Shown: positions 2,485-20,642 of the stretch, piece by piece | Numbering within the stretch: the stretch's first letter is position 1 | How the letters are laid out: each line of letters opens with the position of its first letter | Virus record (IMG/VR): IMGVR_UViG_3300044295_000220 | Location: 1 to 24,042 of that record | Strand: one strand, 5' to 3' | DNA from: a virus | Length of the DNA: 24,042 nt | Notes under the pieces: generated by a model | The model's input: the letters and a program-made list of their open reading frames with translations, nothing else | Database searches by the model: none | What the model was told of the DNA's origin: nothing | Translations under genes and position numbers: made by a program

Positions 2485-3537
2485 TTGGACGCCTCAAAAC
2501 TCAATAAGTTAATTAAGGACATTGGAGCAACAATACTTTCAGAGAGCATCGTATTCGATGAAACAAATGTTGTTCCGACTCCTGTCCCGATGATCAATGT
2601 GTTATTATCGGGTCGTGTGGATGGTGGTATCTATCCAGGCGTAACGATGATTGCAGGACCGTCAAAGCACTTCAAGACTGGTTTCAGTCTTCTATTAATG
2701 AAGGCATATCTAGATCAGCATGAGGATGCTAGGGCAATTATGTTTGACTCTGAGTTTGGAGCAAAGCCAACGTATTTTTCTACGTTCGGTATTGATCCTG
2801 ATAGAGTCCTGCATATTCCTGTTACGGAAGTTGAGGAGCTAACTCATAAGTCATTGATTGCCTTAGACAGTATTGAAAAGGGAGACCATTTCTTTTTCTT
2901 TGTCGATTCGATTGGCAACCTAGCTTCCCGTAAGGAAGTGAAAGACGCCAGAGAAGGCAACGATAAGGCAGATATGACTAGAGCAAAGGCCATTAAGGCG
3001 TTCTTTCGCATCACCACTGCCAAGTGTGTTCTGAAAGGGATACCAATGGTAGCTGTCAACCATACGTATAAGGAACAGAGCATGTTCCCGAAAGACGTTG
3101 TGTCAGGTGGAACAGGAGGTATGTATAATTCAAACGACGTTTGGATTGTTGGCCGTAAACAGGATAAGGAAGATAAGTCTCTTGCTGGATTTACCTATGT
3201 TATCAATGTTGATAAGTCTAGGTTTGTCCAGGAGAAATCAAAGGTAGAAATTACAGTTGGTTTCAAAACTGGAATCATGAAAAATAGCGGTCTTTTAGAT
3301 TTGGCTATTGAAGGGAAGTACATAAAGCAGTATCGTAGTAAGACTATGATGTATCAGTTGGAGGGAGAGGAGCAGAGCTATACTTATGATGAGATAGTTG
3401 ATAGAGACAATTTTTGGGATCACGTGTTTACGACAACGGATTTCAAGGATTATATCAAAAACAAATATGCTTTAGCAGGAAGTCCAATTTTAGGTGAGCA
3501 TGATGCTAACGAACAAAGTAACGATGACGCTGACTGA
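2485..3537 (+). CDS. uvsX: UvsX, RecA/RAD51-like recombinase
   Basis: A 350-residue strand-exchange ATPase. The Walker A loop is GPSKHFKT at 58-65, very close to T4 UvsX (GPSKSFKS). The Walker B strand is HFFFFVDSIG at 135-144 (D141), with acidic E90 after the first core strand (MFDSEFG). The FPKDVVSGGTGGMYNS region at 201-216 corresponds to DNA-binding loop L2 and the following helix. The C-terminus (EHDANEQSNDDAD) is acidic, as in RecA and T4 UvsX. The start is TTG at 2485, supported by AGGAG at 2474-2478 six bases upstream that overlaps the stop of the previous gene; the first in-frame ATG lies inside the conserved core. In T4-type phages UvsX drives recombination-dependent replication with UvsY, gp32, gp41 and Dda. 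Confidence 0.95.
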   Translation: MDASKLNKLIKDIGATILSESIVFDETNVVPTPVPMINVLLSGRVDGGIYPGVTMIAGPSKHFKTGFSLLLMKAYLDQHEDARAIMFDSEFGAKPTYFSTFGIDPDRVLHIPVTEVEELTHKSLIALDSIEKGDHFFFFVDSIGNLASRKEVKDAREGNDKADMTRAKAIKAFFRITTAKCVLKGIPMVAVNHTYKEQSMFPKDVVSGGTGGMYNSNDVWIVGRKQDKEDKSLAGFTYVINVDKSRFVQEKSKVEITVGFKTGIMKNSGLLDLAIEGKYIKQYRSKTMMYQLEGEEQSYTYDEIVDRDNFWDHVFTTTDFKDYIKNKYALAGSPILGEHDANEQSNDDAD

Positions 3538-3718: not shown

Positions 3719-4129
3719 ATGTCTAAAAGATGGATTAAATCAAAAATAGAAGAAAGAAATCAAGAACGTGGATATGTTCGAATGTATAGGGAAGATGCAC
3801 TTCGAAAACAGAACATGTGTTGCTATTATTGTCTAAATCCATTGACGTTTCAGAATGCAACGGCGGATCACTTGCACCCCCGTTGCAAGGGTGGTGATTC
3901 TAGAAAGGATAACATTGTTGCATCTTGTCAGGAATGTAATACATGCAAGTCAATTTTTGACAAGTATATATCGGCAGATGTTTTCAGAAACATGGTACGT
4001 TCTCCTCCAAAAGAGATTACAGAAATAAAGTTATTCTTAGCTCATTTTAGGTTTAGATTATGGTCAAAGGTTCATGCCTTTGACCGCAGATTACAGAAAG
4101 TAACATACTCTTATAATGAATATAGATGA
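3719..4129 (+). CDS. HNH endonuclease
   Basis: A 136-residue protein with a clear HNH/zinc arrangement: MCCYYC (C35 and C38), ADHLHP (D50, H51), KGGDSRKDN (N65) and ASCQECN (C70, C73, N74). The two CxxC knuckles bind a structural zinc and the DH...N residues form the beta-beta-alpha metal catalytic site seen in McrA-like and homing HNH nucleases. The N-terminus (about 30 residues) and the C-terminus are basic and helical, suitable for DNA contact. It sits between uvsX and the helicase gene, where T4-type phages often carry free-standing homing endonucleases (T4 has segA downstream of uvsX). The homing role is inferred; a packaging or recombination nuclease is the alternative. The last 14 bases overlap the start of the helicase gene. 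Confidence 0.85.
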   Translation: MSKRWIKSKIEERNQERGYVRMYREDALRKQNMCCYYCLNPLTFQNATADHLHPRCKGGDSRKDNIVASCQECNTCKSIFDKYISADVFRNMVRSPPKEITEIKLFLAHFRFRLWSKVHAFDRRLQKVTYSYNEYR

Positions 4130-5549
4130 AATCGTCCTTTCAGGTTTGGTATTTTCGGAAGATTATGCTCGGAAAACCTTACCATTCCTAAAGGACGAAT
4201 ATTTTGAGACCAACTACTCCCGTATCATCTTTGGTATAATCAACTCTTACTTTCTTAAGTACAATCGAACTCCAACTAAAGAAGTTCTAGATATTGAGTT
4301 ACAAGCCAAAGGTATACAGCTTTCACAAGATGAGTATGGTAAAGCTCAAAGTACAGTTAAGAACCTAGAAGTAGGGGACCACGTAAAATCAGATTGGTTG
4401 ATTGATACAACAGAAAGATGGTGTAAGGACAGGGCATTATTTATTGCCCTGTCCAAGTCTATTAAGATATCCAAAGAAGACAGTGGATCACTGTCTATTG
4501 GGGCCATTCCCAAGATATTACAGGAAGCCTTAGCAGTATCGTTTGATACCAAGATTGGTCATGATTACTTTCTCAATTGGCAGCACCAATATGAGTATTA
4601 CCATCTTGAAGAATATAAGATTCCATTTGATCTTGAATTTCTAAACGAGATTACCAAAGGCGGGGTTTCCAGAAAGACACTCAATATCTTACTTGCTCCA
4701 ACTGGAGTCGGTAAGACAATGTTCATGTGTCATTTCGCGACCTCAAATCTCTTGAGAGGAAAGAACGTCCTATACATCACTCTTGAAATGGCAGAAGAGA
4801 GGATACGTGAGCGTATTGATGCTAATATTTTGGACGTTAAGTTACATGATCTAGAGCACCTAACCAAAGAGTCATACGAAAGAAAGATTAAACAGGCGCG
4901 AGAGAAAACGCAAGGCAACTTAATTATCCGTGAGTATCCTGCAACAACTGTGTCTGTGTTAGCGTTTCGTCATCTCATTGACGAATTGAAGCTAAAGAAA
5001 AACTTTGTTCCTGATATAGTCTATATCGACTATCTAAATCTTTGTGCATCAGCCCGAGTGAAAAAGGGTAGCACGGGATCGTATGATTATATTAAATCAA
5101 TTGCCGAAGAGATTAGAGGGTTTGCGGTAGAGTATAACATTCCTATTATAAGTGCTACACAAACTAATAGAGGAGGGTTCAATAATCTTGACATTGAATT
5201 AACAGACACTAGCGAATCTATCGGACTTCCTGCAACTGTTGATTTGATGCTTGGTATCATGGTTGACGATAATTTAAGAAACATGAACCAAGTCTTATTT
5301 AAACAGCTTAAGAACCGATACGAAGACGAAAACAAGAGGCGGTATTTCGTTATAGGCGTCGATAGACCTAAAATGAGATGCTTTGATACTGAACAGCCTG
5401 CTAATGAAAAGATTACACATGATGTGCCTGTATTTGATAATACTCAAGTCGGAACAGAAATGAACGATGATGAGGATAATATATTTTCAGGACTTGATAG
5501 TGTCGGTATTTCAAAAAAAGCAAAGGAAATATTCAAAGAGTTTAAATAA
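4116..5549 (+). CDS. 41: Replicative DNA helicase (gp41/DnaB-like)
   Basis: A 477-residue DnaB-family helicase of the size of T4 gp41. The N-terminal 1-150 region is helical, as in the DnaB/gp41 primase-binding domain. The RecA-like core follows: Walker A LLAPTGVGKT at 192-201, YITLEM at 220-225 (catalytic Glu region, motif H1a), Walker B DIVYIDYLNL at 300-309 with D305, the SATQTNR sensor at 346-352, and DTSESIGLP at 364-372 (motif H4). The C-terminus from about 430 is acidic and probably flexible. In T4 systems gp41 forms the 5'-3' hexameric helicase at the fork and pairs with gp61 primase, also present here at 11915-12928. The gene starts inside the end of the HNH gene with no strong ribosome-binding site, suggesting translational coupling. 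Two strong inverted repeats lie within its coding sequence (4427-4496). Confidence 0.95.
   Translation: MNIDEIVLSGLVFSEDYARKTLPFLKDEYFETNYSRIIFGIINSYFLKYNRTPTKEVLDIELQAKGIQLSQDEYGKAQSTVKNLEVGDHVKSDWLIDTTERWCKDRALFIALSKSIKISKEDSGSLSIGAIPKILQEALAVSFDTKIGHDYFLNWQHQYEYYHLEEYKIPFDLEFLNEITKGGVSRKTLNILLAPTGVGKTMFMCHFATSNLLRGKNVLYITLEMAEERIRERIDANILDVKLHDLEHLTKESYERKIKQAREKTQGNLIIREYPATTVSVLAFRHLIDELKLKKNFVPDIVYIDYLNLCASARVKKGSTGSYDYIKSIAEEIRGFAVEYNIPIISATQTNRGGFNNLDIELTDTSESIGLPATVDLMLGIMVDDNLRNMNQVLFKQLKNRYEDENKRRYFVIGVDRPKMRCFDTEQPANEKITHDVPVFDNTQVGTEMNDDEDNIFSGLDSVGISKKAKEIFKEFK
4427..4496 (+). repeat. Two adjacent intragenic hairpins inside gene 41
   Basis: The first is a 10-bp perfect, GC-rich stem: arms 4427-4436 (GGACAGGGCA) and 4445-4454, loop TTATTTAT. 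The second is an 8-bp perfect stem: arms 4478-4485 (AGACAGTG) and 4489-4496, loop GAT. They are 23 bases apart in the segment linking the helicase N-terminal domain to the ATPase core. Neither is followed by a T-run, so they are not intrinsic terminators. A role in mRNA stability, cleavage or translational pausing is possible but unproven. Confidence 0.6.
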
Positions 5550-5558
5550 TGGAGAAGT

Positions 5559-6872
5559 GTGGCCACTAGTGGAAAGGCAAAGTTCGAAAAGTATTTTCAA
5601 GGAAAGCATATAGAGACCAAAATACGAAACGGCAAAGGACCTGCCAAAGTATATTTGAATTGTCAGACTAAAGTTTTTACTTGTGAATTAATCGAAGGCA
5701 CCGAGATTTTTGTTTTGCCTGTTAATGAATATAGCCCTAAATACAAAATTATGTACGATGGGAAAATTGGATATGTGCCCGAAAAATATATTACCAAGCC
5801 CAAGAAAGACAGGGGAGCTACTGAAATGCTGGGTATCTATAGTGCAGAGTTGGCTAAATGTGGAACCGAAGCGTCTCTTAATTTTGGAGATGGTATTACT
5901 ACCGTAAGACAGTTCTACAATGCTAAAGATATTAAAACCTCTATCATTACAGCCCTTGCCTCAAACCAAAATGTATGTAATGAAATCACAAAGACAGTAG
6001 ACGATATTCTTTCTTATACACCATCTTCTTTTATATGGGATGCTTCTATTGATCGATATGAAATAGATGAATTAGGAAAGTATATTGGGGAGCTTCTATT
6101 TGGGTTGATCATTATGAAGCAAGGGGAGTTTGATGGTAATAAGGTTGTTGGAATTGCTGTCCCCGATGATCCAACATACAATGGTCTAGACTCATTCATT
6201 TATTGTGAGTCTAATAAGACTATTGGTGTTTCTAGTAAATACGGTGTAGGGGCCAAGGCCTCATTCTTCACTAACATTCTTGATAAGGTATGTGATCAAA
6301 GACATATTATGCCAGAGTGTGTTCTTAAACACGTGTGTGAGAGATACAATCCATTTGGTAATTCGCGCGAATTTATCTATGAATATGGGGTAAAGAACAT
6401 TCTAGGGTTGAACATGGACAACCCATACAAGCTATACAAGGCGATCAAGGCAGGACAGGCGGTCCCTGTAAAGGATGATTTAATGTCTGTTATGATTGCT
6501 ATTGATGACATGATCTTAAATGAACCTAAAGAAAACGCGGCTGCTATCATAACAGCAACAAAGATACGTCAGGAACTTCCTTATTCGATAACGTCTTTCT
6601 TTTGTCGTAAGATCGCAGAACAATTAAACTCTTGTGAAGTATCGATGGTATTCCTAAAAAATGCTTTACAAAATAATGAGATTTATCAGGTGCATTTAGA
6701 TCAAAACAAATGGGCTAAAGGCGAGATAAGATTTGATGCATATAAGATAAAATCATCTACTTTAAAAATCGTTGGAAATAAATCAGCTATCAATGACCTT
6801 TCGTGTAGTCAAGGAATGCTGAATTATGAATTAAGAACTTTACCAGAAGATAAGTTTGAAGTGACAGTATAA
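5559..6872 (+). CDS. Uncharacterised protein with SH3-like N-terminus and possible PD-(D/E)XK-like core
   Basis: A 437-residue protein starting at GTG 5559, with GGAG at 5551-5554 upstream. Residues about 38-80 read as a bacterial SH3-like barrel: GTEIFVLPVN, then YKIMYDGKIGYVPEKYI, the usual closing strand and signature. The middle resembles a restriction-like nuclease core: a helix KYIGELLFGL (E178), then LDSFIYCES (D211), a strand IGVSSKYGVGAKAS with K227 and a glycine-rich turn. In active PD-(D/E)XK enzymes the residue two before Lys is usually Glu or Asp; here it is Ser225, so catalysis is doubtful. The rest is helical with no recognised motif. It directly follows gp41 and is closed by a terminator overlapping its stop, so it is the last gene of the replication operon. 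Function unknown; the fold assignments are by eye. Confidence 0.75.
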   Translation: MATSGKAKFEKYFQGKHIETKIRNGKGPAKVYLNCQTKVFTCELIEGTEIFVLPVNEYSPKYKIMYDGKIGYVPEKYITKPKKDRGATEMLGIYSAELAKCGTEASLNFGDGITTVRQFYNAKDIKTSIITALASNQNVCNEITKTVDDILSYTPSSFIWDASIDRYEIDELGKYIGELLFGLIIMKQGEFDGNKVVGIAVPDDPTYNGLDSFIYCESNKTIGVSSKYGVGAKASFFTNILDKVCDQRHIMPECVLKHVCERYNPFGNSREFIYEYGVKNILGLNMDNPYKLYKAIKAGQAVPVKDDLMSVMIAIDDMILNEPKENAAAIITATKIRQELPYSITSFFCRKIAEQLNSCEVSMVFLKNALQNNEIYQVHLDQNKWAKGEIRFDAYKIKSSTLKIVGNKSAINDLSCSQGMLNYELRTLPEDKFEVTV

Positions 6873-6889
6873 TTACTGTCACTTTTTTT
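6861..6889 (+). terminator. Intrinsic (Rho-independent) terminator
   Basis: A perfect 9-bp stem, GTGACAGTA (6861-6869) with TACTGTCAC (6874-6882), a TAAT tetraloop and seven consecutive T at 6883-6889. The left arm and loop encode the final V-T-V and the TAA stop of the upstream gene. It is the strongest terminator in the window. The next gene starts only 12 bases after the T-run. Confidence 0.9.
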
Positions 6890-6901
6890 AATGGAGCTTT
6901 A

Positions 6902-7531
6902 ATGTTATATAACGAATTAGTTGATATGCGCAAGGTTGGTTCATATGGTATCGAAGAACTTCTATGGATAAAGGCTGATACAGGTGCTTTTGATGGACCG
7001 CTACAAGATTGGGCGTCTCATTCTGAGAAATATCAGAAGTATTGTGATAAGTTTGATGTGGTTGTCTGTGCGGGCGGCAACCAAGGTATGTATCCACTTC
7101 TCTTTTCAAAGATGTTCAATATCGTATATACCTTCGAACCTGATCCATTAAACTTTCATTGTCTAGTGAACAATTGCCAGAATGATAGAATTGTTAAGTT
7201 CAATTGTGCTTTAGGCTCTAAGAATGAAATGGGTCAACTAAAATTAGGAGCTACTGATAATACAGGAACACATGAGGTATATCCATCAACGGAAGGTATA
7301 GTTCCAATGATGCAACTTGATAATTTCGATTTTCAGAAGCTAGATTTGATCCAATTAGATATTGAAGGATATGAACAAGAGGCGCTTTTAGGCGGTAGAG
7401 AAATCATAAATAAGTTCAAACCAGTCATTTCTGTTGAGCGTTCAAACCCATCAATTGTTAGTTTCTTAGCACAATATGGATATCAGGAAGTTGAACGTTC
7501 ACATGCAGATACATTTTTTAAGGTGCTCTAA
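6902..7531 (+). CDS. FkbM-family SAM-dependent methyltransferase
   Basis: A 209-residue class I methyltransferase. Motif I is FDVVVCAGGNQGMY at 51-64, the SAM-binding strand and glycine loop in its FkbM form. FEPDPLNF at 78-85 carries the acidic residue for the SAM ribose and the FkbM-type EP(D/N) motif. LIQLDIEGYEQEAL at 149-162 is the hallmark FkbM motif (usually IDxEGxExxxL), and ISVERS follows. FkbM enzymes are mostly O-methyltransferases acting on sugars or small molecules; in phages they occur beside glycan or DNA-modification genes. The start ATG is preceded by GGAG (6893-6896). A strong terminator ends just upstream, so expression must come from read-through. It overlaps the next gene by one base (TAATG). 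Confidence 0.82.
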   Translation: MLYNELVDMRKVGSYGIEELLWIKADTGAFDGPLQDWASHSEKYQKYCDKFDVVVCAGGNQGMYPLLFSKMFNIVYTFEPDPLNFHCLVNNCQNDRIVKFNCALGSKNEMGQLKLGATDNTGTHEVYPSTEGIVPMMQLDNFDFQKLDLIQLDIEGYEQEALLGGREIINKFKPVISVERSNPSIVSFLAQYGYQEVERSHADTFFKVL

Positions 7532-7839
7532 TGCCAAACAAGTTTAACTTGCCAGAACCAATAACATTTAAAAGAACCACTCCTAAGGACCCAAAGAGAA
7601 TTATCAATACAAAGCCGCGCCTAAATGTGGTTGATAAAAATGGCAATCCTCAAAAGCCACTAGGTGTGATTGCATCTCAGAGAGTTAGGACCGAAGGCGT
7701 TCTAACATCAGTATATTTAAACTCTATCAATGAATGGAGTGAGGATACAGGGGTAAGTAAAGAAGAATATGCCCTGAGTAAGCTCAATGAGTTTCTTACA
7801 GAAACTAGACGTGGTATTAAGGGACAGGAAAAGAAATAA
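7531..7839 (+). CDS. Hypothetical protein (102 aa)
   Basis: This gene starts on the last base of the preceding stop (TAATG). The product has a Lys/Arg/Pro-rich N-terminal half, likely flexible (KRTTPKDPKRI), then a compact C-terminal half with helix-forming residues from about 60 to 95 (NSINEWSEDTGVSKEEYALS and following). I recognise no family. The C-terminal part looks like a small helix-turn-helix or oligomerisation unit, but no convincing DNA-binding signature is visible. It is tightly coupled to the methyltransferase upstream and to the 531-residue protein five bases downstream. Confidence 0.65.
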   Translation: MPNKFNLPEPITFKRTTPKDPKRIINTKPRLNVVDKNGNPQKPLGVIASQRVRTEGVLTSVYLNSINEWSEDTGVSKEEYALSKLNEFLTETRRGIKGQEKK

Positions 7840-7844
7840 TAGGT

Positions 7845-9440
7845 ATGGAACTAACAGAAAAGTCTAACTTGCCTACACAACATGATTACTATCTACACAT
7901 GCATGTATCAGGGCCAAGTGAGGAAGGTAATTTAGGGGCTGGTCATAGAGACCACACAACTGTTTCACTTCCTTTCAAGGTTCCCGCTGGAAAGAAAGGG
8001 GCTAGAGCGCACCCTGACACGGCATGGAGAACTAAGACCCTAAAAGATAGCTTGAAAAAGGTTAAGTCTGGGGCAGTATCATGGAAGACGTTTGGCAAGA
8101 AAGACGGTTCGGAAGCAGTTGTTCCCGTTAGAGGTAATATAAAGCTACACGGCTATTCATTTTCATATCTGCCGAAGTCTGAGGCTATAGATGCCTCAGT
8201 AAATGGGGCTAATTCGATGAAGGAAGCCCATCCTAGCAAGCTGAAACGCCCTAAGCCGAAGGTCAAAAAGAAGCCTCTGAGAGAGAATTATAGGTCTCTT
8301 GAAGGGGTCTATATGACTATGCAGATGGGTATAAACGAGATCATTGGCGAGCAAAAGATTATAGACGAAGCTAACGCTGAGGCGGATAGCTCATTAGAGG
8401 TTATCGAGGAAGGGTTCTTTAAGCGTCTATTAGGTATAAAGCCAAAGGAAAAGCCTGAGTTATTCAGCGGGGCTGTTTACAATCAAACTACAAAAGAGTT
8501 TGCAGGGCATATCTTTTTACCTGCAAGGCCTCATAGAGATGAAGAATTAAGCTATCCAGACAATACAGGTATGGGCCTTCATAAGATGAGCATTCGAGGA
8601 ATGTCCCATCACGAAGACGCAAAGTTTGATAAAAAGAACAATACTGTAGAATGGAAACATGCTGAGGGTAAAAAGGGAAACAATACCCTTTATCACCATA
8701 TCAACAGATACATGAGCACTTGGACAGAGCCATTTAAGGGGGCTTCTCAGTCTGATATTGAAGATCATGCCCATAGAATGGCAACGGATATTTCCCGTGC
8801 CATCGTACAGCATCAATCTATTGCTCATAAAGAACTTGAGCCACATGAGGTTGAGCAACATATGAATGCTATGGACCATCATATTGGAGAGTATCATAAA
8901 GCTAAAGCAGATCATGCAACCATGACAGCCGAGCTAGAGAAATACAAAAACTCATTTGATCCTAAGAGCCCTGATTACAATCAATTACGTGTTAGGGCTA
9001 CAGGTTATAACCCTGGTCATCCTGGAATCCTAAAGACGAGAGAGGCTAAGTCCATTCAGATAGGCGTCCAGAAGGCCAAAAATGCAATGGACAAGCATGA
9101 GCATCACTATAAATATCATCAGCGTGTGTTAGGATCGCAAAGAGCATTTAAAGGACTTATTGGAGACGAAAATATGTCAGAAGAAACAAAGATTGACCCT
9201 AAGGTGGCGTATTACGCTAACATGATCAAGACTTCAACGTTTCTAAGAGAACAATTAATAGCTACCAGACCTACAAATAGATCAATGGGGGCCACAACGG
9301 CTCGCCCTGGAGCCAAGATTGCTAGCAGAACCAGCAAGCCAACGAGTGGCGGGGTTCCTCCTATGAAGCCTGGAGGCGGTGCAACTCAAACTAATATGCA
9401 TAGAATGAGTGCTGATAAGCCTGGGGTTCCGAAGCGTTAA
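7845..9440 (+). CDS. Large uncharacterised protein, His-rich, basic, multi-segment
   Basis: A 531-residue protein with no enzyme motif I recognise. Three parts are visible. Residues 1-120 are rich in His and aromatics (YLHMHVSGP, GAGHRDHTTV) and may be beta-rich. Residues about 128-210 contain a Lys/Pro linker (KLKRPKPKVKKKP) and an amphipathic helical section. Residues about 210-440 are strikingly His-rich and helical (SHHEDAKF, YHHINRY, QHMNAMDHHIGEYHKAKADH, HEHHYKYHQR), possibly metal binding or coiled coil. The C-terminal 60 residues are Gly/Pro/Thr/Arg-rich and probably disordered. The His spacing is not that of HD, metallopeptidase or HNH sites. It is the last gene before a late promoter. 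Candidates are an internal or injected virion protein, or a host-takeover protein; neither can be shown here. Confidence 0.7.
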   Translation: MELTEKSNLPTQHDYYLHMHVSGPSEEGNLGAGHRDHTTVSLPFKVPAGKKGARAHPDTAWRTKTLKDSLKKVKSGAVSWKTFGKKDGSEAVVPVRGNIKLHGYSFSYLPKSEAIDASVNGANSMKEAHPSKLKRPKPKVKKKPLRENYRSLEGVYMTMQMGINEIIGEQKIIDEANAEADSSLEVIEEGFFKRLLGIKPKEKPELFSGAVYNQTTKEFAGHIFLPARPHRDEELSYPDNTGMGLHKMSIRGMSHHEDAKFDKKNNTVEWKHAEGKKGNNTLYHHINRYMSTWTEPFKGASQSDIEDHAHRMATDISRAIVQHQSIAHKELEPHEVEQHMNAMDHHIGEYHKAKADHATMTAELEKYKNSFDPKSPDYNQLRVRATGYNPGHPGILKTREAKSIQIGVQKAKNAMDKHEHHYKYHQRVLGSQRAFKGLIGDENMSEETKIDPKVAYYANMIKTSTFLREQLIATRPTNRSMGATTARPGAKIASRTSKPTSGGVPPMKPGGGATQTNMHRMSADKPGVPKR

Positions 9441-9445
9441 TAATA

Positions 9446-9453
9446 TATAAATA
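9446..9453 (+). promoter_or_regulatory. T4-type late promoter (TATAAATA)
   Basis: An exact match to the T4 late-promoter element TATAAATA lies in the 45-base intergenic gap after 9440, 40 bases before the start of a virion-type gene. T4-type late transcription uses gp55 (sigma) and gp33 with the sliding clamp. Position, exact sequence and downstream structural gene agree; expected chance matches in a window of this composition are one to two. Confidence 0.75.
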
Positions 9454-9485: not shown

Positions 9486-10100
9486 ATGGCCTTATGGGGT
9501 TCTATAGACAGAGCAAATAGCTCTCCGATTTTCACAGCGGCTCAGTTTAATTTAGCTGCTAATTCAGATAACAGAGATGCATTATTCACTAACTCAACTG
9601 CCGATGCTTTTATTACGGGTAAGACAGTTGGTGTATTTGGTGTTAATGACAATGAGCAAGCGGCTTCATTAGGTAAGTTTCCTCATACAGGATGGATTAT
9701 CAAGACAACGGGTTCTGGCGGTCGCGCGGGTCGTGTGACGTATGAATGCCTTGTTGCAGGTGGTTTTTCTGTTGACGCTAACGTGTCAGGTACGCCTAAC
9801 AACGCAATCGTTATCTCCATTCATCCTACCAGCAAATCAGTTAACGATAACTTATCAACTACGTTCTCTATTAATGCTGTTACAGCCCCTCCTGGTGGTA
9901 CTATTACCTATCTATGGCAGGCTAATACAGGAAGTGGATTCGCCAACCTTACAAACGCTGGCGTGTATAGCAACGTTACTACAGCAACATTGTCTATCTC
10001 TAACGTCCATAGCTTAAACGCAGTTTCATATCAGTGCTTCCTAAGATCAACGGGCGCTGTTAACGTAACATCAAACTCAGCTACACTAACAGTCGTCTAA
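9486..10100 (+). CDS. Virion/surface protein with C-terminal Ig-like domain
   Basis: A 204-residue protein in two parts. Residues 1-95 (MALWGSIDRANSSPIF start, then ALFTNSTADAFITGKTVGVFGV and GWIIKTTGSGGRAGRVTYECLVA) match a module I know from T4-like marine and cyanophage structural proteins. Residues about 108-204 form an immunoglobulin-like domain: TYLWQ holds the core Trp, LSISNVHSLNAVSYQC carries the usual F-strand Tyr-x-Cys pattern, and SATLTVV is the final strand. Ig domains on T4-type virions (for example Hoc) often bind host surfaces or mucus glycans. The start is supported by GAGGG at 9472-9476 and a late promoter at 9446. The exact virion location is unknown. Confidence 0.75.
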   Translation: MALWGSIDRANSSPIFTAAQFNLAANSDNRDALFTNSTADAFITGKTVGVFGVNDNEQAASLGKFPHTGWIIKTTGSGGRAGRVTYECLVAGGFSVDANVSGTPNNAIVISIHPTSKSVNDNLSTTFSINAVTAPPGGTITYLWQANTGSGFANLTNAGVYSNVTTATLSISNVHSLNAVSYQCFLRSTGAVNVTSNSATLTVV

Positions 10101-10118
10101 TAAGCGACTGTTATTATA
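10088..10118 (+). terminator. Possible weak terminator hairpin
   Basis: An 8-bp perfect stem, AACAGTCG (10088-10095) with CGACTGTT (10105-10112), has a 9-base loop containing the stop codon of the upstream gene. The following bases (ATTATATAAT) are AT-rich but not a proper T-run, so termination would be partial at best; an mRNA 3'-end or processing structure is the alternative. Confidence 0.45.
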
Positions 10119-10694: not shown

Positions 10695-11036
10695 ATGAAT
10701 ATCCCAAATGAAGTAGTTTGGATATTAGTGGCAATTCTTGGGGGAGCAGCTAGATATTTTGATAGATATCTAAAAGGTGAAGAGACACTTTTATTTGTTA
10801 GATTGATATCAACTATTATAGTTACTGGTTTTACTGGTTATATGTGTTCTCAAGTTATATTGTTATTATATCCACAATGGGTCACGATTGGAGCGGGGGT
10901 CGGGGGATACGCGGGAACACAGATTATGGATATGATATTTGAATTAGTGAAATTGAAACTAGGAGATGCAAATAAGGTTGTGAGGGATGAAAGTAAACCC
11001 TCGGCAACCAAGCCGACAATTGGAAAGAAAAAATAA
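10695..11036 (+). CDS. Putative holin (holin superfamily III / LydA-like)
   Basis: A 113-residue membrane protein. Hydrophobic segments are at about 7-20 (WILVAILGGAAR), 33-58 (FVRLISTIIVTGFTGYMCSQ and onward) and 62-85 (TIGAGVGGYAGTQIMDMIF), followed by a charged, Lys-rich cytoplasmic tail (90-113). The G-(A/V)GGYAGTxxMD pattern in the last segment is typical of LydA-like phage holins. Holins form pores that release or activate the endolysin at lysis time. No endolysin is visible in this window. It overlaps the next gene by one base (TAATG), and that gene is its shortened paralogue. Confidence 0.65.
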   Translation: MNIPNEVVWILVAILGGAARYFDRYLKGEETLLFVRLISTIIVTGFTGYMCSQVILLLYPQWVTIGAGVGGYAGTQIMDMIFELVKLKLGDANKVVRDESKPSATKPTIGKKK

Positions 11037-17959: not shown

Positions 17960-18035
17960 TGGGGTTTAGCCTAGCGGACTAAGGCTATGGATTTTGATTC
18001 CATGATCGCAGGTTCGAATCCTGCAACCCCTACCA
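17960..18035 (+). tRNA. tRNA-Gln (anticodon TTG), CCA encoded
   Basis: A 76-base cloverleaf. Acceptor 17960-17966 (TGGGGTT) pairs with 18025-18031 (AACCCCT) except for a U1-U72 mismatch; D-stem GCCT/AGGC; anticodon stem ATGGA/TCCAT with loop TTTTGAT, anticodon TTG at 17994-17996; T-stem GCAGG/CCTGC with loop TTCGAAT; discriminator A and an encoded CCA. A weak or open 1-72 pair is characteristic of tRNA-Gln and favours glutaminyl-tRNA synthetase recognition. It reads CAA (and possibly CAG) codons. Confidence 0.93.
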
Positions 18036-18041
18036 TTTTAA

Positions 18042-18092
18042 GCAATCTTGAACCTCTAAATATGCACACAAAGCAATGTTTAGGAAGATTGC
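18042..18092 (+). promoter_or_regulatory. Inverted repeat able to sequester the tail-fibre gene ribosome-binding site
   Basis: GCAATCTT at 18042-18049 is perfectly complementary to AAGATTGC at 18085-18092. The right arm covers most of the AGGAAG ribosome-binding site (18082-18087) of the gene starting at 18102. A candidate late promoter (18055-18062) lies inside the 35-base loop. Transcripts reading through from upstream would contain both arms and hide the site; transcripts from the internal promoter would lack the left arm. Confidence 0.55.
18055..18062 (+). promoter_or_regulatory. Candidate late promoter variant (TCTAAATA)
   Basis: TCTAAATA matches the T4 late element at six of eight bases with the TAAATA core intact. 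It lies in the intergenic gap after tRNA-Gln, 47 bases before a tail-fibre-type gene. The same octamer occurs at 23217-23224, 48 bases before the Hsp20-family gene. The predicted start near 18068 would give a short leader containing the ribosome-binding site. Confidence 0.45.
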
Positions 18093-18101
18093 AAAAAATA
18101 A

Positions 18102-19118
18102 ATGTCAAAAATATCTAATATAGCTGTAACTAATTCAGCAAGTTCTAATGATAGAATACTGTTACTTGTTAACACAAGTGGTACAGCAAATCTAAGAACT
18201 ATTACTACAGAAAATCTATTTACTACTATTGCCACAACTGCTAATACTACAGTAGCAGGTGTAATAAAAGTCGGTAATGGACTTTCTATTAATGGTAATG
18301 GGTTCTTATATTCTACTGTAGGAACCGCTAATACTACTGTAGCGGGTGTAATAAAGGTAGGAGATGGGCTTGCCATTGACGGTAACGGTTTTCTAACCGT
18401 TGATGGTCCTGCTGGTTTTTCTAACGGTAGTGATATTCTTGTTGATACAATTACCATCGGTAATGTCACATCTTATTTTACAACATTATCAGTTAACCAG
18501 ACTACAGGAGCCTTTACGATCCACAGCGCCCAAGATGGCGGATGGATAAATGAATGGAAAATGATCCATGAGGACGGGGTTCCACGGTTCTATTTACCAT
18601 TAAATGGCTCAATTAATAATGAAGATGGTTCGCATTATCTTACAAAGGCAATGTCGGACATAATTCCTGTAACCACGGAACAGAGTTTAGGAAGCCCTGA
18701 CCTTCCATGGAAGCATTTATATATTTCGAACAACACCATTTATATTAATGGTATTCCATTAACTATTTCTTCAACTAATGAAGTTCTAGTTAATGGTCAT
18801 GCAACGTATTCACCAATGGGTAGCGTAACTAATAATCAGTTATGTTTCTCTAAAGAAATAGTTGCAAGCGGTAATTTAAAGCTAAGCGGAAATCTATTAG
18901 ACGGGTTAGAACGCCCATTATTAAATACTAATGCGCTAGATATAAATACAGATGGTGGAACTTCGGTATCTGTGTTTTCGGCTTATGATTTACAGTTTGA
19001 TGGTGGCTCTGTGAGCACAATATTTGGCTTGTACGAAGCAGGTTTAGACGGTGGTTGTTCATATAATAACCTAATATCTTCACAATTTTTAGACGGTGGC
19101 AGCGCCTTAGTCCAATAA
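18102..19118 (+). CDS. Tail fibre / minor structural protein with internal repeats
   Basis: A 338-residue, Asn/Thr/Ser/Gly-rich, beta-type protein. Two 24-residue repeats occur at 46-69 and 75-98 (TANTTVAGVIKVGNGLSI and TANTTVAGVIKVGDGLAI, each ending in GNGFL), a pattern common in T4-like fibre shafts. LGSPDLPWKHLYISNNTIYI at about 203-222 is a phage fibre motif often found before a chaperone or receptor domain. The last 60 residues carry four DGG motifs at 14-18-residue intervals (TDGGT, FDGGS, LDGGC, LDGGS). AGGAAG at 18082-18087 precedes the ATG by 14 bases. It is probably a host-recognition or baseplate-attached fibre protein; the partner is the next gene. Confidence 0.78.
   Translation: MSKISNIAVTNSASSNDRILLLVNTSGTANLRTITTENLFTTIATTANTTVAGVIKVGNGLSINGNGFLYSTVGTANTTVAGVIKVGDGLAIDGNGFLTVDGPAGFSNGSDILVDTITIGNVTSYFTTLSVNQTTGAFTIHSAQDGGWINEWKMIHEDGVPRFYLPLNGSINNEDGSHYLTKAMSDIIPVTTEQSLGSPDLPWKHLYISNNTIYINGIPLTISSTNEVLVNGHATYSPMGSVTNNQLCFSKEIVASGNLKLSGNLLDGLERPLLNTNALDINTDGGTSVSVFSAYDLQFDGGSVSTIFGLYEAGLDGGCSYNNLISSQFLDGGSALVQ
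18237..18395 (+). repeat. Tandem 72-base coding repeat in tail-fibre gene
   Basis: Two in-frame 72-base units, 18237-18308 and 18324-18395, separated by 15 bases, encode near-identical 24-residue segments. They differ mainly at third codon positions, so the protein rather than the DNA sequence has been conserved, which implies an old duplication under selection. Confidence 0.8.
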
Positions 19119-19142: not shown

Positions 19143-20642
19143 ATGGCAACGAAAATACAGGCTAGAAGAGATACCAGAGCAAATTGGGAGAGTGCTAATC
19201 CAGTTCTCAGTCAAGGTGAACCTGGACTAGAGATTGATACTGGTAGATTTAAGTTTGGTGACGGTACGTCCAAGTACACAGATTTACCTCATGTTGGTTC
19301 GTCACGCAAAAAGATGACTGATGGGTCATTCTGGGGAGTTGAAGAGTTTAACGGGGTCAAAGAGTTTACCTTTACCACTAGAGGCCATAGATGGTTGCCC
19401 GTAATTGCGGCTCAGTCAGGTGAAGGATTGACTTCATTTACTGTTAGCAGCGAGACTTTCCCTGATGTTATAGCCCTATATGCTGCTTATAGCGCAGACG
19501 GGATTGGTAGCATAAGAGTTATGCCTAATAATGATATTAATAATCAGTTAACGATTGATACTATATCATTTGACAATGACCATACATATACCTTTGTCCT
19601 AGATGGAGGAAGTATGGATTTGACTAATGGTACTACTCCTCTTCTAATCATCGCTTGGTGGAGAGGTACTAGATTAGTAATTAATGATATGTATGAACTT
19701 TATAATATGAGGCCTAATGCTACAACATCTAATTCAAACGTAGTTGTGATTGATGCTGGCGGAAGTTCAACCGATTTTGATACGTATCTTATGACAAATC
19801 CTACCAAATGTGCATTGGTGTTTGACGACAAACCACAAGCATGGATTCAGGATGGTCAGCATCTTATTGATGATGAAAGAAAGATTTTATCGGTTACAAA
19901 AAACGACACTCTATACACAATTACATTTGATGGCGAGCCTATTTCTTTAAGAACAGATTATAACCCTTCTGTTAATACGGTTGCGTCTCTTGCTGTTGAG
20001 AATAGCACAATCATTTATGTTAATAGAACATTATATCCTGAGATTTCTGATTGGGTTTATTATTCTGGTGGTACTGTAACCATTGGTGAACAGACTGCAA
20101 GCATTTCTTATATTGATCAATATGAAAACAATAACATTACCTATTATGGTGATAATTGGGTTATCTGGTTAAATAGCCAAGTTACGTGTAATGTGGGCGA
20201 TACTATTACGTTTTCTTATTCTAAGCCTGGGACCGATATTACTTTAGAACTTTATAGACCAAACCATTCTATTGACACTAATGAATACATGTGGTTTAAT
20301 TGGTTGGATGATCTTCCTAAATTACGTAACATTCCTGGTCAAGGTGTAGAAGGTGGTGAAATTACGTTCTTCTGTAAGGTATATCGCCCATATGACAATA
20401 CAGTAGATTATTATATGAATGCTAGATATTTCCATCTAGGTCACTGGTGGGATTATTCTAGAAGACGTGGCCAGCCTAATTTCTGGTTTGGCCGTGACTC
20501 TAATGATACTGTGTTTTATTCATTCGACCAAAATGGAATTACCTTTAAAGAATATCCATATGAAAACGTATCACAAGATATTAAAGTGAGAATTGCATAT
20601 AGTATGAAATTGATGATTGGCGACCACGAATATTGGGATTAA
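19143..20642 (+). CDS. Tail fibre/adhesin with Mtd-type N-terminal domain
   Basis: A 499-residue protein. Residues 1-50 (TKIQARRDTRANWESANPVLSQGEPG, then IDTGRFKFGDGTSKYTDLPH) match the N-terminal domain of major tropism determinant-type and many T4-like fibre proteins (IQxRRDTxxNWxxxNPVLxxGExGxExDTxxxKxGDG). The remainder is beta-rich and aromatic (for example AWWRGTRLVINDMYELYNM and HLGHWWDYSRRRGQPNFWFG), suitable for glycan or surface binding. There is no repeat of a diversity-generating retroelement and no reverse transcriptase in the window. It begins 24 bases after its neighbour and ends just before tRNA-Ala. Candidate receptor-binding protein; the receptor is unknown. Confidence 0.8.
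   Translation: MATKIQARRDTRANWESANPVLSQGEPGLEIDTGRFKFGDGTSKYTDLPHVGSSRKKMTDGSFWGVEEFNGVKEFTFTTRGHRWLPVIAAQSGEGLTSFTVSSETFPDVIALYAAYSADGIGSIRVMPNNDINNQLTIDTISFDNDHTYTFVLDGGSMDLTNGTTPLLIIAWWRGTRLVINDMYELYNMRPNATTSNSNVVVIDAGGSSTDFDTYLMTNPTKCALVFDDKPQAWIQDGQHLIDDERKILSVTKNDTLYTITFDGEPISLRTDYNPSVNTVASLAVENSTIIYVNRTLYPEISDWVYYSGGTVTIGEQTASISYIDQYENNNITYYGDNWVIWLNSQVTCNVGDTITFSYSKPGTDITLELYRPNHSIDTNEYMWFNWLDDLPKLRNIPGQGVEGGEITFFCKVYRPYDNTVDYYMNARYFHLGHWWDYSRRRGQPNFWFGRDSNDTVFYSFDQNGITFKEYPYENVSQDIKVRIAYSMKLMIGDHEYWD

Follow-up and report, generated by a model that had tools for sequence, protein, structure and literature searches.

The window, meaning the whole stretch of 24,042 nucleotides analysed here, is a viral record, a 24 kb fragment from a T4-like phage. 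The genes for UvsX and a gp41-type replicative helicase mark the end of its replication block (Table 1). They are followed by a gene without assigned function, whose product shows 31.7% identity over 92% to gp073 of phage Cr30 (tblastn), by an FkbM-family methyltransferase gene and by two closely packed genes whose products match nothing in Pfam or PHROGs. The FkbM gene is proposed to be the first of a late unit, with which these two genes would be co-transcribed. The exact late box ahead of the head-protein gene is, by its sequence and position, a conventional late promoter within the same phage. A gene for gp55 was not seen in the window, which is only a 24 kb fragment. The Rfam matches in the window are two tRNAs only, and a curated RNA family at the hairpin behind the replication block was rejected on this ground.

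Table 1. Features of the window that bear on the hairpin behind the replication block and on its surroundings.
Feature	Position	Strand	Basis or remark
UvsX gene	2485-3537		PHROGs phrog_97, E 3.6e-76
HNH endonuclease gene	starts 3719		
gp41-type replicative helicase gene	4116-5549	+	PHROGs phrog_19, E 2.6e-116
Gene without assigned function, ends in the hairpin	5559-6872	+	homologue of Caulobacter phage Cr30 gp073
Intrinsic terminator (predicted), 10-12 bp stem, 4-nt loop TAAT, seven T	6858-6889	+	fold
Putative late-promoter -10 box TATAATTA, in loop and inner stem	6868-6875	+	7/8 match to TATAAATA
Putative leader of late RNA, 21 nt, begins in right arm, GGAG at 6893-6896	6881-6901	+	predicted from T4 spacing
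FkbM-family methyltransferase gene	6902-7531	+	Pfam PF05050, E 3.1e-12; phrog_8156, E 1.2e-37
Two closely packed genes, 7531-7839 and 7845-9440	7531-9440	+	open reading frames overlapping or 5 nt apart
Exact late box TATAAATA	9446-9453	+	33 nt upstream of the Ig-domain head-protein gene
Ig-domain head-protein gene	starts 9486		
Further genes: primase, thymidylate synthase, ribonucleotide reductase, tail-type protein			
tRNA-Gln	17960-18035		
Second hairpin, late-type box TCTAAATA at 18055-18062 in left arm	18041-18093	+	fold, z -4.2
Gene downstream of the second hairpin	starts 18102		precedes tail-type gene at 19143

The hairpin at the end of the 5559 gene reads AGTGACAGTA-TAAT-TACTGTCACT at 6860-6883, with seven T at 6883-6889. 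Its stem consists of ten perfect Watson-Crick pairs, or of twelve (6858-6885, including four G-C) when a further A-T and a G-T pair are counted, these two using two of the T's. An earlier note on this DNA had given the seven T ending at 6889 correctly, together with a stem of 9 bp that is one to three pairs too short. Its description of the element as a strong terminator is upheld by the fold of hairpin and T-run, with -16.1 kcal/mol, a z-score of -7.8 and none of 200 shuffles equally good; in a context of 81 nt the z-score is -3.2, with 1 of 200 shuffles equally good. Under strict criteria it is the sole terminator on both strands of the 24 kb window. Loose terminator-like matches in the window are at the level of chance (12 found, 12.4 expected), this hairpin being the longest and best of them, and 104 of 391 surveyed phage terminators have a stronger core hairpin, so that it is not extreme among its kind. 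By stem, loop and T-run it is a good intrinsic terminator, at which termination is predicted. A bidirectional terminator was rejected, as the minus strand has no T-run.

The FkbM ATG lies at 6902, as had been noted before, 12 nt behind the T-run, and a Shine-Dalgarno-like GGAG stands 5 nt upstream of it; the earlier statement that the stretch from T-run to ATG has no room for a promoter is borne out. The stop codon of the preceding gene had been assigned to the left arm. That arm encodes the last sense codons, and the TAA (6870-6872) sits in the loop.

Loop and inner stem carry the sequence TATAATTA, one base off the T4 late box TATAAATA, with the variant base at box position 6. Promoters of the T4 late type have a -10 box only, at -13 to -6 (PMC1524935), and no -35 element; of 50 listed T4 late sites 32 match the consensus fully, and most of the remainder differ from it at a single position (PMC2988020). 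The box sequences given in PMC1524935, PMC2984593 and PMC2988020 are TATAAATA, NATAAATA and CTAAATA. The loop box has no -35 element, the best match being 2/6 at spacings of 16-18, and inspection of the sequence revealed no TGn extension. From the T4 spacing a start near A6881, in the right arm, is predicted, which would give a leader of 21 nt. A late RNA from about 6881 would lack the left arm and thus could not form the terminator. The earlier note held that the FkbM gene and the two genes behind it depend on read-through, antitermination or attenuation; this does not follow, because a late box, for which no -35 is needed, fits inside the hairpin.

Exact matches to TATAATTA in the window are at the level of chance (2 found, 3.1 expected), which counts against a promoter in the loop, and TAAATA near the gene starts of the window, with 5 occurrences, is within the range of the controls (up to 7). 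Within 28 nt after phage terminators TATAATTA was seen 4 times against 0.28 expected, at sites without -35 elements. Such a box could serve either gp55 or sigma-70. The GGAG of the FkbM gene has an unpaired probability of 0.34 in the late RNA versus 0.32-0.50 in read-through RNA. This Shine-Dalgarno sequence is not predicted to be freer in the late RNA, so a translation lock like that of T4 gene e was rejected for the FkbM gene, and the hairpin there would act on transcription only.

No close homologue of the junction itself was found in phage records or viral contigs. Positions 5559-9440 gave no blastn match against phage records, and scans of viral contigs with peptide patterns of FkbM and the upstream protein and with the exact hairpin returned nothing usable. 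Alignment-based scans yielded 4, 80 and 80 loci, among which, only part being annotated, the gene order at the window hairpin was not seen. The homologue of the 5559 gene in Cr30 ends a gene run that faces a convergent gene, and in locus L010 the homologue is preceded by a terminator and TATAAATA. Upstream regions of FkbM genes were viewed in 59 cases, from 80 viral and 4 phage loci: in L104 and L106, identical in sequence, a terminator and TATAAATA precede FkbM in this order, the box adjoins the FkbM ATG in L108 and L110, and in L151 a terminator touches the FkbM gene. Most of the 59 regions have none of these arrangements, so FkbM is not generally tied to a switch of the kind proposed below.

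Two observations from these loci are recorded in their own right. In L108 and L110 the box TATAAATA lies about 5 nt upstream of the FkbM ATG, just before the match at 5001; judged by its position, transcription from it would begin at the start codon or close by, giving a late RNA that is possibly leaderless. In Cr30 (L007, 7199-7229) the end of gp073 falls inside a perfect 14-pair inverted repeat, and homologous codons (KIVGNKG...YELR) resume in another frame right after the repeat, which may reflect a frameshift, a recoding site or a sequence error brought about by the hairpin.

Terminators were surveyed in the loci from two protein searches, in tiles of eleven named T4-like phages, in one further viral record and in the window, with 12 control hexamers set beside TAAATA. 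This motif stands 1-20 nt downstream of the stem in 49 of 391 terminators (controls: mean 10.2, maximum 18), and late promoters and terminators thus appear to be normally packed together, the classical cassette. Inside the hairpin, with the start beyond the loop, it was found in 6 of 391 (controls: mean 1.7, maximum 4), and there is no excess of it just upstream of the stem with a start that falls in the left arm (11 of 391; controls: mean 7.7, maximum 12). A selection blind to the motif gave 46 of 413 terminators that touch an ATG. Twelve of these 46 carry TAAATA with a predicted start inside the hairpin, compared with a mean of 1.5 and a maximum of 4 for the 12 controls; the loci are partly related (L070 and L091 are near repeats), so that independent cases are fewer than twelve. 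The window is absent from the twelve and from all exact-motif counts, as its box is a variant without an exact TAAATA core. With one mismatch allowed, a box in the position seen in the window occurs in 7 of 390 other terminators (control mean 1.57), and among 53 control motifs at least one likewise gives 7, which counts against the loop promoter. ATG-touching terminators of syn9 (L197), S-PM2 (L213) and ACG-2014d (L245) have TATAAT- or TATACT-like boxes just upstream of the left arm and resemble, by sequence, early versions of the same overlap in the manner of PeSLs, reportedly promoter early stem-loops in the terms of Arbiol in 2010 and Comeau in 2014.

The excess of late boxes with a start inside the hairpin among equally tight terminators (12/46) speaks against the main rival explanation, a leaky terminator, by which the hairpin halts most polymerases where the replication block ends, the FkbM gene and the next genes are served by the few that read through, the loop holds no promoter and the box is there by chance. 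This explanation is consistent with a T-run that adjoins the gene and with an AT-rich loop that includes the TAA stop. It also accords with the lack of a strong sigma-70 promoter in 4100-6900, where 9-of-12 matches were the best found, so that polymerases reading through would have started farther upstream. By chance, about 0.4% of hairpins (1.57/390) are expected to hold an equally good box in this position, a share that is small but, for a post hoc observation, not negligible. We regard the leaky terminator as unlikely and rank it ahead of the ribosome-coupled and sigma-70 versions considered further below.

The overlapping design recurs in named phages. S-PM2 has a terminator with ATAAATA in the loop upstream of the gene for gp13, the head-tail adaptor, at about 66,789-66,833, and OspM_OC one with TAAATA in the loop between tRNA-Pro and the tail spike gene, at about 148,277-148,325. 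In ACG-2014d the box lies just upstream of the stem, followed by a carbamoyltransferase gene and downstream of a head-vertex gene. Sf-CH5 and S-8S56 have a T-run that reaches, or all but reaches, the ATG, with TAAATA immediately upstream of the left arm; the site is the junction downstream of gp41 and MazG, where an overlap was present in 2 of the 8 named phages examined and absent in the other 6, which counts against the design.

A larger set of hairpins, a metagenomic family, came from a scan with the pattern TCTAAATA-GGGG-T6, which matched at least 120 stretches, 80 loci being listed as a sample. The pattern fixed TCTAAATA, GGGG and the T-run and left only the left arm free to test. Among the matches listed, TCTAAATA lies in a hairpin loop at 45 of 80 sites, and with near-identical sites removed a stem of at least 9 bp is formed at 38 of 65 distinct sites, against 0.55 on average and at most 3 when the left flank was shuffled in 200 rounds. 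In all 38 hairpins among the matches listed the predicted start falls in the right arm, in 20 an ATG follows the T-run immediately, and a Shine-Dalgarno-like stretch lies between start and ATG in 34, or in all 38 when the right arm was searched slightly more widely. The mean unpaired probability of this stretch, again among the matches listed, is 0.02 in read-through RNA versus 0.50 in late RNA, and it is higher in late RNA in 37 of 38. Each of ten family records checked holds one such site.

Ten upstream and ten downstream proteins were tested from among the 38. Three of the upstream ones are MazG-like; downstream there are one head closure protein, one DNA end protector and one RuvC-like protein, six that match families without assigned function and one without a match. 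Members that adjoin MazG or its small neighbour occupy the same map place as the window hairpin, just after UvsX and gp41, and some lie elsewhere, for instance downstream of a tail-tube gene (L496). Sites running from TATAAATA to T6 in random viral contigs form a hairpin in 3 of 85 among the matches listed, which counts against the design. As a separate observation, the first gene after the loop-promoter hairpin differs strongly between related contigs (L418-L496), several of these genes resembling by eye short nuclease-type proteins (motifs such as VEAK or IEIK); this may be a site of variable cargo controlled by a constant late switch.

The window itself holds a second late-type box within a hairpin, which lies downstream of tRNA-Gln and ahead of the gene at 18102 and has no T-run. 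The Shine-Dalgarno sequence AGGA of that gene has an unpaired probability of 0.02 in RNA reading through from the tRNA versus 0.82 in RNA from the predicted start at 18068, and the hairpin is thus predicted by folding to hide the site from read-through RNA only. It suggests that hairpins of this phage do contain late boxes. Three further folds were noted in the window. A ten-pair hairpin at 10087-10113 (z -3.0, no T-run) has the tandem stops TAATAA of the 9486 gene in its loop and ends 11 nt upstream of the next ATG (10125). A stable hairpin GGTCAAAGG...CCTTTGACC at 4056-4115 (z -3.8) is located within the last part of the HNH gene, a short way upstream of the start of the gp41 helicase gene, and a stable fold at 10976-11035 (z -4.1) lies just upstream of the gene at 11036, within the coding end of the previous gene.

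We consider it rather probable that the 32 bases at 6858-6889 are a compound switch, which ends a middle RNA and starts a late RNA within the terminator. Polymerase coming from the UvsX-gp41 replication block would transcribe both arms, the hairpin would form and transcription would end at the seven T. Late in infection, we infer, a gp55-type sigma would recognise TATAATTA in the loop and open the DNA there; RNA would start near A6881, inside the right arm and without the left arm, pass the T-run and continue through the leader with its GGAG into the FkbM gene and the two following genes. The promoter in the loop is supported by the tight terminators of the survey, among which late boxes with a start inside the hairpin exceed the chance expectation, by the second late-type box in a hairpin of the window, and by the named cases, which precede virion genes (gp13 in S-PM2, tail spike in OspM_OC).

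That the design exists in other T4-like phages is very probable. We lean slightly towards the wider view of a widespread element common to T4-like phages, placed where the replication block ends and made up of a terminator, a late promoter in its loop and often a Shine-Dalgarno sequence in its right arm, of which the window would be a divergent member with TATAATTA. If so, one palindrome would take three timed decisions: middle RNA ends, leaked RNA is left untranslated, and late RNA starts past the lock and is translated.

The same loop letters admit a reading by host sigma-70, as TATAAT at 6868-6873 is a perfect -10 hexamer, and the box would then belong to an early or middle promoter in a PeSL-like cassette rather than to a late one. 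Early promoter-terminator cassettes are known in T4-like phages (cited in PMC4503421), and TATACT or TATAAT stands just upstream of the stem in some surveyed terminators; with a -35 match of 2/6 at best at spacings 16-18 and no TGn extension, we hold this reading to be improbable, and assignment of 6858-6889 to the PeSLs was rejected for want of a -35. Coupling of a translating ribosome to termination, as the earlier note suggested, is possible with the stop codon in the loop. Since the last genes of ordinary operons overlap their terminators too and no alternative antiterminator fold was seen in the 81-nt context, we give the lowest probability to a translation-coupled attenuator, in which a ribosome ending at TAA 6870-6872 would occupy both arms and let the polymerase pass, FkbM expression following upstream translation; it could act together with the loop promoter.

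If the compound switch is true, a phage with almost no intergenic space would separate middle from late transcription without antitermination, since late RNA, starting within the terminator, would not be stopped by it. A terminator touching a start codon need not mean dependence on read-through, and promoter searches that mask terminators would miss such sites. Elements of this type would also be compact parts for synthetic circuits, which stop one polymerase and start another.

Already known are the logic of the translation lock (T4 e, soc, 49 and I-TevI) and the fusion of early promoters with terminators (PeSLs). A literature search, in which the PeSL work was represented by a citing paper only and which is thus no proof of absence, found no description of a late promoter in a terminator loop with a Shine-Dalgarno sequence in the right arm. 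Ordinary intrinsic terminators are like the window element in stem, short loop and T-run, whereas here the next ATG stands 12 nt behind the T-run and a promoter-like box lies in the loop. Promoters of the T4 late type are alike in having a -10 box only and a short spacing to the start; those surveyed usually follow a terminator, whereas the one proposed here lies in a terminator loop and departs from the consensus at position 6.

The early promoters of PeSLs are sigma-70-like. As cited in PMC4503421, PeSLs combine terminator stem-loop and promoter within a very short intergenic space of T4-like phages, as is proposed for the window element; in contrast, the window box has no -35, resembles the late consensus and lies inside the loop. 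T4 genes e, soc, 49 and I-TevI have inhibitory leader hairpins, with the late promoters of gene e in the DNA of the 5' strand (PMC3014915). In systems of this type the hairpin is complete in the long early or middle RNA, whereas the late RNA, whose promoter is situated in the hairpin DNA, has no 5' arm and escapes the block. The box at 6868-6875 with a predicted start near 6881, past the 5' arm, would repeat the gene e arrangement in its geometry and near-consensus sequence only. The like case for a lock of the gene e type is the hairpin at 18041-18093, where the predicted fold hides the Shine-Dalgarno sequence in read-through RNA and frees it in late RNA. The T4 hairpin hides a ribosome site and blocks translation, whereas the hairpin at 6858-6889, with its T-run, is predicted to stop transcription.
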